The translations under genes were made by a program, and so were the position numbers. A DNA stretch of 35,996 bases from a virus. The stretch spans positions 1-35,996 of IMG/VR virus record IMGVR_UViG_3300049739_000043. One strand, 5' to 3'. Of the stretch, positions 25,641 to 34,873 are shown piece by piece (the stretch's first letter is position 1; each line of letters begins with the position of its first letter). The notes under the pieces are model-generated. The model ran no database searches and was not told the DNA's origin. It saw only the letters and a program-made list of their open reading frames with translations.

Positions 25641-25669
25641 ATTATAAGGTATATATACGGACTTGTCAA
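25641..25669 (-). promoter_or_regulatory. perfect sigma-70 promoter (TTGACA-17-TATAAT)
   Basis: On the minus strand TTGACA (25664-25669) and TATAAT (25641-25646) are separated by exactly 17 bases, a full consensus host-type promoter. It lies across the stop codon of the CobT-like gene, about 35 bases before the ATG at 25606. It should be active without phage factors. Confidence 0.9.
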
Positions 25670-30901: not shown

Positions 30902-31176
30902 AATTTAACTCCCATACTAACAGAGGTAACATAAGTATGATCATCAAGTGTTCCTTCCTGCAAACACTTAAGATGCCATCTTGTTATCTGAGTAACTCCA
31001 TCTTCAGTAGCACCAGTAATAAAGTTAGCACCATAAGGTTCTTTCAATACGCTGGTATAAAGACCAAAGCGAGTTGCTTTAACATAGAAGATATCATCAA
31101 TCCAAACCTGATCGTCAGGAATATTCTTTTCAATCGTAGGATTAGATCCTAGACTAGTTGCTAATGTAGATTTCAT
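30898..31176 (-). CDS. conserved phage protein between gp55 and gp47 (92 residues)
   Basis: The sequence is mixed alpha/beta: NIPDDQVWIDDIFYVKATRFGLYTSVLKE in the first half and a central GANFITGATEDGVTQITRWHLKCLQEG. I do not know the family. Phages of this type often carry a small gene here. It is coupled by ATGA to gp55 and by GTGA to gp47, so its synthesis is locked to both. No signal peptide, membrane segment or nuclease motif is visible. Confidence 0.72.
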   Translation of the reverse strand: MKSTLATSLGSNPTIEKNIPDDQVWIDDIFYVKATRFGLYTSVLKEPYGANFITGATEDGVTQITRWHLKCLQEGTLDDHTYVTSVSMGVKL

Positions 31177-31667
31177 CGATTCATTCTTGTTTCAATGTTT
31201 TCTTTAATGCTGCCCATATCTGAATAGGACATGTTCATTCCTGCCATGTCTCCTTCAAACTTCTCTGTATACATAACTTCCTGGTAACCAGACTTCTCAA
31301 GGATCTTACTCTTAATCTCCAATTGCTTCTTCTCCTTCTGTATGCGTCTCAGGAAGGCGTAGTAGATAATCTGGGTGAAGTATGCAAAAGGATTGGAACT
31401 CTTCTCTGGGTCGAAGTTATCGATGTATTGTAGGCAGTTCTCAATGCCATCACAGATCATGTCCTCACGGAACATGTAGTTGACAAAGTTTGGTTTGTAT
31501 GAAAGGTGTGTAGCGATCTTCAGGAAACACTCACCAATATAGTTAGTGACTCTTGGACGAGGTTTTCCTTGTTCCTTTGCACGATGAACCTTGCTACGAT
31601 ACTCCGTGATGGCAGCGAGGAACTCTTTGTTGTTTACGTAATATTCTTTGTTTTTGGTCCTTGCCAT
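31173..31667 (-). CDS. gp55: late-transcription sigma factor (T4 gp55-like)
   Basis: A 164-residue minimal sigma factor that directs host RNA polymerase to late promoters of the TATAAATA kind. Region-2-like core: GECFLKIATHLSYKPNFVNYMFREDMICDGIENCLQYIDNF (about 45-85), then NPFAYFTQIIYYAFLRRIQKEKKQ (about 92-115), the core-binding and -10-recognition helices. The N-terminus is basic. The protein explains the TATAAATA boxes in the window. It has its own consensus sigma-70 promoter, so host enzyme can make it before the switch to late transcription. The stop is coupled to the 92-residue gene. Confidence 0.93.
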   Translation of the reverse strand: MARTKNKEYYVNNKEFLAAITEYRSKVHRAKEQGKPRPRVTNYIGECFLKIATHLSYKPNFVNYMFREDMICDGIENCLQYIDNFDPEKSSNPFAYFTQIIYYAFLRRIQKEKKQLEIKSKILEKSGYQEVMYTEKFEGDMAGMNMSYSDMGSIKENIETRMNR

Positions 31668-31689: not shown

Positions 31690-31718
31690 ATTATAGTCGA
31701 TTATCAAGAACATGTCAA
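31690..31718 (-). promoter_or_regulatory. perfect sigma-70 promoter for gp55
   Basis: On the minus strand TTGACA (31713-31718) and TATAAT (31690-31695) are exactly 17 bases apart. Transcription would begin around 31683, leaving a very short leader before the gp55 ATG at 31667. The -35 is one arm of the palindrome at 31713-31727. Confidence 0.9.
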
Positions 31719-31727
31719 GGCTTGACA
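31713..31727. repeat. palindrome TGTCAAGGCTTGACA overlapping two -35 boxes
   Basis: Seven-base perfect arms (TGTCAAG and CTTGACA) around one centre base. The left arm is the -35 of the minus-strand gp55 promoter and the right arm reads TTGACA on the plus strand. It could be an operator for a dimeric repressor or a by-product of two head-to-head promoters. Confidence 0.6.
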
Positions 31728-31750
31728 GATCCTCAGAAACTTAGTAGAAT
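31722..31750 (+). promoter_or_regulatory. possible divergent promoter (TTGACA-17-TAGAAT)
   Basis: On the plus strand TTGACA (31722-31727) is followed after exactly 17 bases by TAGAAT (31745-31750), one base off consensus. It points away from gp55 into the 31782-32177 and uvsW genes, antisense to them. No plus-strand gene follows, so any product would be an antisense or small RNA. Confidence 0.45.
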
Positions 31751-31751
31751 A

Positions 31752-31778
31752 ACTCTGTAAGGGTTCAAGAGACAGAGT
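31752..31778. terminator. hairpin after the 131-residue gene
   Basis: ACTCTGT (31752-31758) pairs perfectly with ACAGAGT (31772-31778) around a 13-base loop, just past the stop at 31782. On the minus strand it is followed by TATTCTACTAAGTTTC, so the U-tract is poor. It may be a weak terminator ahead of the gp55 promoter. Confidence 0.4.
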
Positions 31779-31781
31779 ATC

Positions 31782-32177
31782 TTAGCTTCTTTTAAATAGA
31801 GATTCAAGATTCTTCTTGACTTCCTCTACTGATCCTATGTAACCATTGTTCTTTAACTTGTTTGGTTTCACATCACAATCTTCATTGAAGTTATCTTCAT
31901 CAAGATTACCTAGGTAGAAGTTTTTAATTTTATCATCTAGTTCTGTCATCGTGATGACTTGTTCCATACGAATAATAAACATCTCTTCGTATGTTGCTTT
32001 CATCCACTCCTTCAAAATAAAACCAGATACGTTCTTACCATGTTTTTTAGTGTGGTGATGTTCTACTAGTAATGGTTTCTCAATAAGGAGGGAGTCCTCT
32101 TCTTTAAGGTAAGATACCTTAGCAACGATCTCCTCTCCTGATCTTAATTTTATACTTGAATAGAATTCTTCTTCCAT
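31782..32177 (-). CDS. conserved protein, possibly Sm-like barrel (131 residues)
   Basis: The opening FYSSIKLRSGEEIVAKVSYLKEEDSLLIEKPLLVEHH (about 4-40) is a regular series of strands and turns like an Sm/LSm or related small barrel. It recalls the start of the 150-residue protein at 18029-18481. The rest contains a helical stretch and a very acidic C-terminal part (LDEDNFNEDCDVK). Function is not known to me. It begins 1 base after the uvsW stop, so is probably translated with it, and a hairpin follows its stop. Confidence 0.72.
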   Translation of the reverse strand: MEEEFYSSIKLRSGEEIVAKVSYLKEEDSLLIEKPLLVEHHHTKKHGKNVSGFILKEWMKATYEEMFIIRMEQVITMTELDDKIKNFYLGNLDEDNFNEDCDVKPNKLKNNGYIGSVEEVKKNLESLFKRS

Positions 32178-32178
32178 A

Positions 32179-33651
32179 TTATTTTCTTAGATCTATTTTT
32201 ACTTTTTCATATTTAAAATTCTCTTCTTGATAGATCTTCACTCGTTCGTATAGATGTCTTAAAGTGTAATTAGATCTTGTTTCGTTAGAGATGTCATCAG
32301 CAATATCATAAAGTGTTGCGATGTCTTTACCTTCTCCCTTCCTCAGGACTCTACCAATTGACTGTAGGTTACGAACTCTTGACTTGGAAGGTGATGCGAA
32401 AATAATATTGTGTAATCGTTTGATGTTAATACCAGTAGAGAAAGTTCCATAAGAAGCAATAATAATTGCATTGCTTTCCTTCTCAGCAATTTCTCGAACT
32501 TCTTCTCTGGAATCTACATCAACTGAACCATGGACGAAGAATACTTTTCTATCGTCCTCTACCACATTATTTATCATTTCATAAAGTGGTTCACCATGCT
32601 TCTCGACATAGTTGAATAGAACCAATGTATTGCCATCTAAATCTTTAACTAGATTCTTGATGAGGTTGTTTCTTTTTTGACATGTAACAAGATACTCCAT
32701 CTCTGAATGGTAGTCTTCAAAGAATTGATACTCATGCTTACACATAAGAATTTTAATCCTAAAGTTAGACAGGTATCCTTGCTTGATTAGATCATCAGTT
32801 CTAGTAACTTTCTCACACTTACCAAACAATCCTTCCAGCACCCACTTGTGTGTCTTACTCCCATCAAGGGTGCCAGTAAATCCAAAACGATACTTGGCAT
32901 TGTGTAACTTAGTCATGATGCCTGTCAGACTCTTTGACTTAAATAGATGTGCTTCATCACCGATAACACAGTCAATGTCATCGAAGTATCTTTTGGGAAA
33001 TTTATAGATTGATTGCCAGGTTGAGATGATAACTGGTTTATCAGTATTCTTATCTTTGCCTGAATAAATGGTGTGACAATTGTCTTCTGCATTCCATCCA
33101 TAGTCTTTGAAATCTTTTAGCATCTGTTGAACAAGAGAAGTGGTAGGAACCACAATCAAAATCTTCTTCCTTGTTGCAGCATAATATCTAACAATACTAT
33201 AGATCATTAATGACTTACCAGATCCTGTTGGAGATAAGAACAAACCACGGTTGTCTTTAAGTGCGCGATGAACAGTATTATATTGATAGGTGCGTGGAGT
33301 GATACCAGATCTGGTAATCTTATCCATAAACACTTTAACGCCTCCAGGAGACACGAAGTCGTTCCTATCCTCTACGTGCCCATACCATTCGTTATCCTCG
33401 TAGGAGACGCTGTAGCGCCTCTCTGCTGCCCACTCATGTAGATGTGATAGGAGACCCCCATACAGTTCTCCTGTGCCAGGAGAGTATAGTCTGATCATCC
33501 CATCCCAATACTTAAATCTAGGTTGCCTCTTTAGAAACTTTGCCTCTGGCAATTCAAAAGAAAAGTAATCAGATAGTTCGTGATGAATGTGAGGTTCTGA
33601 TTGGAGAGTCAGATATACCTCATTCTTTTTCTTTACAACAATGTCAGACAT
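32179..33651 (-). CDS. uvsW: UvsW-type SF2 helicase
   Basis: A 490-residue RNA/DNA helicase of superfamily 2 that in T4 reverses forks, moves branches and unwinds R-loops, switching off origin replication late. The N-terminal about 100 residues form the small UvsW-specific domain. Motor motifs: Q-x-x-T region PRTYQYNTV (119-127), Walker A SPTGSGKS (140-147), CVIGDEAHLF (DEAH, about 229-238), GFTGT (about 255), and the C-terminal GRVLRKGEGKD (about 440-450). Length matches T4 UvsW closely. The start makes a TAATG overlap with uvsY. Confidence 0.95.
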   Translation of the reverse strand: MSDIVVKKKNEVYLTLQSEPHIHHELSDYFSFELPEAKFLKRQPRFKYWDGMIRLYSPGTGELYGGLLSHLHEWAAERRYSVSYEDNEWYGHVEDRNDFVSPGGVKVFMDKITRSGITPRTYQYNTVHRALKDNRGLFLSPTGSGKSLMIYSIVRYYAATRKKILIVVPTTSLVQQMLKDFKDYGWNAEDNCHTIYSGKDKNTDKPVIISTWQSIYKFPKRYFDDIDCVIGDEAHLFKSKSLTGIMTKLHNAKYRFGFTGTLDGSKTHKWVLEGLFGKCEKVTRTDDLIKQGYLSNFRIKILMCKHEYQFFEDYHSEMEYLVTCQKRNNLIKNLVKDLDGNTLVLFNYVEKHGEPLYEMINNVVEDDRKVFFVHGSVDVDSREEVREIAEKESNAIIIASYGTFSTGINIKRLHNIIFASPSKSRVRNLQSIGRVLRKGEGKDIATLYDIADDISNETRSNYTLRHLYERVKIYQEENFKYEKVKIDLRK

Positions 33652-34124
33652 TAGTTTCCATTAATAAATCTTTCCCATTCAATCGCATTCTTCACATGAT
33701 AATTTCTTTGGGAAATCATTCTCAAAACGTTATCAAGATAATACAGTATTTGATCAATGAACTTGATCTTTGCTTCTATGTTAATTAGATCTTCATCTGA
33801 TTCCAGATAGACCTTCATTTTTTCTGATGTTTTAATACTGTTACCAAAAGGTTTTTCTGCGTAGATGCGAGCGTCTGCTTCTCCCCCATAATACTCTCGC
33901 TTCTCGCGCAGTAACTTTCTTGCCTCAAACTCTAGAGACGTTTTGATTTGTGAAAGATCCGTGTAATGGTTTAAGTATTTATTGTGTTGGAAAGGGATCT
34001 CCATTGAGATCTGTCCAAGATCAGCAGTGTATTGTTTGTTCTTAAATTCGTGTTCTACGTGACTGTCACTTGCCCATTCGTTTTTGATTTTTTCAAAGCG
34101 TTGATGTAGTTTATCAAAATTCAT
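33651..34124 (-). CDS. uvsY: recombination mediator UvsY
   Basis: A 157-residue protein that loads UvsX on single-stranded DNA covered by gp32. It is all-helical with the pattern LNHYTDLSQIKTSLEFEARKLLREKREYYGGEAD (about 50-84), YAEKPFGNSIKTSEKMKVYLESDEDLI (about 88-115), and LDNVLRMISQRNYHVKNAIEWERFINGN at the end. T4 UvsY shares the ...R-x-x-YY-x-G, ...SEMKTVLSAD and the ...R-x-F-x-I-K... C-terminus. It is slightly longer than T4 UvsY (137). Adjacent uvsW and coupled overlaps support the call. Confidence 0.92.
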   Translation of the reverse strand: MNFDKLHQRFEKIKNEWASDSHVEHEFKNKQYTADLGQISMEIPFQHNKYLNHYTDLSQIKTSLEFEARKLLREKREYYGGEADARIYAEKPFGNSIKTSEKMKVYLESDEDLINIEAKIKFIDQILYYLDNVLRMISQRNYHVKNAIEWERFINGN

Positions 34125-34651: not shown

Positions 34652-34873
34652 CTATTTAGTGTAGTATGCCTTATAGTATGCTACGAGACCATCTGTTCTT
34701 GCGTTGCCTGCAGACACCCAGTCATGGATGCACTCGTAGATGCTCTGGTTAGAATATCTGGGAGATCCATCAGAACAAATTTCTGATCCAAATTTTTTGA
34801 GTAGAATATTTAGTCCTTGGGTTCTTACATCCATGCGATCATCACTGTAACGCCAATCATCAATCATCTTCAT
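34652..34873 (-). CDS. small conserved protein (73 residues)
   Basis: The protein starts MKMIDDWRYSDDRMDVRTQGLNILLKKFGSEICSDGSPRYSNQSIYECIHDWVSAG and ends AYYKAYYTK. It is soluble, with helices and conserved Trp/Tyr/Cys. No family is known to me. The ATG could be at 34873 or 34867. It overlaps the preceding 42-residue gene by 14 bases and comes 24 bases before the tail protein ATG, so the small genes form a cluster ahead of it. Confidence 0.7.
   Translation of the reverse strand: MKMIDDWRYSDDRMDVRTQGLNILLKKFGSEICSDGSPRYSNQSIYECIHDWVSAGNARTDGLVAYYKAYYTK

Follow-up and report, generated by a model that had tools for sequence, protein, structure and literature searches.

A sigma70-type promoter directed away from the late sigma factor gene gp55 was found in T4-like cyanophages (Kyanoviridae). 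Practically all of the relatives examined have retained it, and the antisense promoter is therefore very probably a real control element. It points into genes lying on the opposite strand, among them the uvsW helicase gene, and a dyad is centred on its predicted start site. In the three genomes scanned in full, it occurs together with this dyad at one further place. The start-site dyad and the two-copy occurrence are new relative to the first-pass annotation of this DNA.

The window, i.e., the whole stretch analysed, is a Kyanoviridae fragment of 35,996 nucleotides (IMG/VR record IMGVR_UViG_3300049739_000043) that shows about 96% identity to Syn1/S-RIM44 over gp55, the gene of a 131-aa protein and part of uvsW. 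An interval of 114 bp separates gp55 from the 131-aa gene. The first-pass annotation had placed two back-to-back consensus promoters with 17-base spacers upstream of gp55, both taking their −35 boxes from one palindrome. The two are host-type sigma70 promoters; their hexamers, spacers and palindrome were all located (12/12 and 11/12 matches to consensus; Table 1), the plus-strand start was again predicted at 31757, and the orientation of the plus promoter into the 131-aa gene and uvsW agreed. Matches of at least 11/12 on both strands did not occur in any of 3000 Markov resamplings of the 150-nt region. Inverted repeats with 7-nt arms arose in 6.5% of the same resamplings, so the palindrome alone is unremarkable; since the two −35 boxes abut, its perfection is a by-product, and the palindrome is incidental. 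A second perfect TTGACA-17-TATAAT is found in the window at 25641-25669 (minus strand), where a 711-aa ORF ends; a 152-aa ORF of that strand follows after about 35 nt.

Table 1. Coordinates of the features at the gp55-uvsW locus (positions in the window).
Feature	Position	Strand	Remarks
gp55, late sigma factor	31173..31667	-	
gp55-sense sigma70-type promoter	31690..31718	-	-35 TTGACA 31718-31713, 17-nt spacer, -10 TATAAT 31695-31690; 12/12
Palindrome TGTCAAG-G-CTTGACA (TGTCAAGGCTTGACA)	31713..31727	.	7+1+7; made by two abutting -35 boxes; incidental
Antisense sigma70-type promoter	31722..31750	+	-35 TTGACA 31722-31727, 17-nt spacer, -10 TAGAAT 31745-31750; 11/12
Start-site dyad AACTCT-GTA-AGGGTT	31751..31765	+	predicted start ~31757 in loop; compensatory changes; common to second genomic copy
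131-aa Sm/LSm-like protein gene (T4-GC 139)	31782..32177	-	PF16243, structure model, Foldseek 3by7; first gene facing the predicted antisense RNA
uvsW helicase	32179..33651	-	PF21241 UvsW_N; faces the predicted antisense RNA
uvsY	33651..34124	-	synteny with Syn1
Late-promoter-like CTAAATA	34653..34659	-	upstream of the gp3-uvsY-uvsW-Sm-like gene run; short motif, near chance frequency

Conservation was assessed on 98 loci, from IMG/VR (80 loci) and from cultured phages, for which the gp55 protein served as the query and the promoter played no part in selection; sites from a scan of viral_contigs by the element pattern are motif-biased and were excluded from these statistics. The antisense −35 box reads TTGACA in 96/98 loci and the spacer is 17 nt long in 97/98. 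At least 10/12 matches were present on the antisense strand in all distinct upstream regions, versus 4% of Markov controls. The first-pass annotation had made the plus-strand promoter depend on conservation of its −10 box in relatives, and this box begins with TA and ends with T in 80/80 distinct elements having the 17-nt spacer. The gp55 promoter is also kept, more loosely, with a −35 box of TTGACA in 55/89 and TTTACA in 21/89 distinct relatives, so that of the two promoters in the gp55-gathered loci the antisense one is the better conserved. It is likewise found at gp55 in the deep relatives P-HM2, P-SSM4, S-SM2, S-SSM7 and ACG-2014f. The number of promoter-like sites in the window (57 found against 49.6 expected) would allow a functionless chance match on the plus strand, but with the two hexamers, a spacer length of 17 nt and the start region all conserved across Kyanoviridae such a match is scarcely credible.

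The distance between the two −35 hexamers behaves differently. Of 89 distinct relatives, 14 have a distance of 3 nt; in the others it ranges from 2 to 28 nt or the hexamers overlap. A conserved dyad with fixed arm spacing, as expected of a palindromic operator, was not found at the −35 boxes. In Syn9 (123698-123746) the gp55 and antisense promoters are not arranged back to back but overlap, and both −35 boxes lie within TTGACAAACTTGTCAA. The first-pass annotation had proposed that a dimeric protein bound to the palindrome blocks both promoters, and had suggested checking the conservation of the palindrome arms. The palindrome is present in the window, but chance not uncommonly yields arms this long; because the arm spacing varies while both promoters persist, a palindrome-bound dimer is unsupported and the palindrome is ruled out as a conserved operator. 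This model is already contradicted and its probability is close to negligible. A timing role by a route other than the dimer is possible.

The promoter-plus-dyad element was present in exactly two copies per genome by matrix scan in Syn1 and S-PM2 and by motif scan in Syn1, S-PM2 and Syn9, so it was rejected as one of many early promoters in these genomes. In each of these three genomes, all scanned in full, one copy is the gp55 antisense copy. The second precedes small ORFs that follow the baseplate lysozyme gene in Syn1, S-PM2 and relatives, and lies among small ORFs in Syn9. On other phage contigs, copies were found upstream of a gene for a RusA-like resolvase or of a SegE-like gene, at a distance of about 30-60 nt. 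Since these other copies stand in sense before genes, the element is suggested to be a working kind of promoter. Three copies were found in S-8S55 and in one metagenomic contig, and a single copy in P-SSM2, S-SSM7 and S-CAM1 at the stringency applied. The start regions of copies within a genome are more alike than those between genomes (edit distance 2.5 versus 4.45), the spacer being less alike, and the significance of this resemblance is inflated by the shared ancestry of close relatives. The start-site dyad marks a small promoter class, the copies of which are probably controlled together. At the second copy (Syn1 16507, S-PM2 162737 and relatives) a late-like CTAAATA lies about 25-30 nt downstream, so that the small genes behind it may be transcribed early as well as late.

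Mimicry of a host promoter was also considered and rejected: the pattern occurs in 4 genome_contigs stretches, with no widespread host copy. These are one gp55 locus and one lysozyme-side locus on phage-like MAG contigs, and two stretches on Synechococcus contigs. Contigs from Lewinella and Saprospiraceae MAGs, assigned to Bacteroidota bins, contain gp55, the Sm-like gene and uvsW, or the baseplate lysozyme gene, together with the same element, and are probably phage contigs in bacterial bins.

The dyad (AACTCT-GTn-AGGGTT) follows the antisense −10 box directly on its 3' side, and its loop is 3 or 4 nt long among relatives. The arms covary, giving AACCT/AGGTT, AACAG/CTGTT, AACTG/CAGTT and CACTCT/GGGGTG. 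Over 18 arm classes, which partly share descent, the pairing score was 3.92 versus 2.57 in shuffles (sd 0.32; 0/5000 as high), the arms being positioned by best pairing in data and shuffles alike. On the plus strand the pairs include 19 G.T and no A.C, a count that leans to G.T as the placement permitted G.T and not A.C; despite this lean, most G.T pairs fall in arms fixed at identical positions. Pairing of the dyad in single-stranded plus-strand nucleic acid is suggested, because G.T is tolerated on one strand. An RNA hairpin made from the antisense promoter was rejected: if transcription begins 7 nt beyond the −10 box, the RNA lacks the 5' arm, and pairing would then take place in the non-template DNA strand. 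As isolated single strands, some dyad variants fold (about −3 kcal/mol), but the variant present in the window does not adopt the dyad pairing. No known structured RNA or tRNA matched the element.

No conserved ORF was found downstream on the plus strand, and no opposite-strand gene is annotated over 88-125 kb of Syn1; a hidden plus-strand gene was rejected on these grounds. Terminator-like sites within 2 kb on the antisense strand were present at only 2/55 loci. The predicted RNA would accordingly extend across the 131-aa gene, uvsW and uvsY in antisense orientation, and is probably kilobases long. The 131-aa protein, annotated as 'methylamine utilization' in relatives, is Sm/LSm-like by its predicted fold, with PF16243 above the cutoff and a Foldseek match of the structure model to 3by7 (TM to target 0.80-0.88). 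The Sm-like gene is kept beside gp55, and a fold of RNA-binding type thus adjoins the predicted antisense RNA. Late-type TAAATA motifs are found upstream of the opposed genes, although these motifs have few bases and their frequency in the window exceeds chance only slightly; within 110 nt upstream of gp55 such a motif occurs at 1/96 loci. TAAATA is also found on the plus strand at 31793-31798, about 36 nt past the predicted antisense start, and at this place in several relatives; it may reflect only the coding sequence of the Sm-like C-terminus.

The favoured explanation, held at about even chances, is that antisense transcription keeps the Sm-like/uvsW/uvsY module back before the late sigma factor acts. 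The minus promoter would make gp55 before late transcription, while host polymerase would use the plus promoter, before gp55 acts, to start, at about 31757, a long RNA that has no conserved ORF and is antisense to the Sm-like gene, uvsW and uvsY. Either the antisense RNA or head-on transcription would repress the module, which gp55-dependent late promoters would later transcribe. We infer the production, timing and effect of this RNA. T4 makes its UvsW late, and the protein brings origin-dependent replication to an end by unwinding R-loops at oriF and oriG (PMC3016281); early silencing of uvsW would have a purpose for this reason. Against repression, the antisense promoter would still be usable late unless it were shut off, and simple antisense regulation leaves the dyad unexplained.

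Other roles were considered as well. The dyad could be an operator through which a regulator, from the phage or from the host, controls the promoter copies jointly, which is compatible with the favoured explanation; the likeness of start regions within a genome, exceeding that of the spacers, speaks for such control. However, this resemblance is inflated by shared ancestry, loop variation of 3-4 nt and compensatory arms with G.T but not A.C are unusual for a double-stranded operator, and no regulator was identified, so that an operator is rather improbable. Less probable still is a replication origin, at which an R-loop of the transcript would prime leading-strand synthesis, as happens at oriF and oriG of T4, and the dyad would be a hairpin on the displaced non-template strand. 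The occurrence of two copies per scanned genome with one beside uvsW, the want of a coding function, and the G.T pairs without A.C on the plus strand, which suggest single-strand pairing, are consistent with an origin, as is the architecture of the T4 R-loop origins, where a promoter is followed by an AT-rich unwinding element (PMC3016281). Yet the 100 nt downstream have 35% GC, only within the lowest 14% of the window, the copy number is 1 in P-SSM2, S-SSM7 and S-CAM1 and 3 in S-8S55, and the second copy changes place. No clear replication signal was found in the GC skew, which does not change clearly at the sites, though this is weak evidence.

The antisense RNA might also shield the mRNA of the uvsW region from host RNase E. 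Protection of this kind is a proposal made for unrelated cyanophages, with a suggestion that it extends to Kyanoviridae (PMC10976474), but the published proposal concerns broad antisense transcription and not one fixed promoter, and we consider it distinctly unlikely here. A similarly low probability is given to the element being an unrecognised two-copy control site of T4-like cyanophages in which a single-stranded hairpin of the non-template strand at the start, formed within the open complex or an R-loop, is itself functional, for example in marking origins beside uvsW.

The Syn9 transcript map of Doron et al. 2016 reportedly describes middle promoters of host-like type and, for early genes, a novel element. 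In PeSLs a promoter is combined with a terminator hairpin. These cassettes of T4-like phages resemble the present element in that an early promoter is joined to a stem-loop-like feature (PMC4503421); they would differ from it in that the dyad here lies on the start site and is without a T-tract. The host-like sigma70 promoters of S-PM2 and Syn9 have the same hexamers and spacing as both promoters here (PMC2984593), whereas the antisense one has in addition a start-site dyad, two copies per scanned genome and no gene of its own at gp55. Antisense RNA is likewise known from a T4-like cyanophage, S-PM2, as the cis-antisense CfrI (PMC2984593). CfrI is about 225 nt long and lies at psbA, while the RNA considered here is predicted, is probably kilobases long, lies at uvsW and would start from a promoter kept family-wide. 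With the T4 origins oriF and oriG the element has in common that it is promoter-driven, has a non-coding role and, in one case, lies near the uvsW/uvsY module (PMC3016281). Unlike the present element, T4 origins use MotA middle promoters and an AT-rich element, and the sequences of oriF and oriG have little in common, while the start region here is alike in the copies.

To our knowledge, T4-like cyanophages lack MotA, AsiA and the polymerase-modifying enzymes of T4, and the timing of their middle and late genes is, as far as we know, unsettled. A family-wide antisense promoter directed into uvsW and the Sm-like gene, beside the late sigma gene, would provide a concrete control point. The dyad, being common to two sites far apart, suggests a small and dedicated class of promoters or an origin signal.
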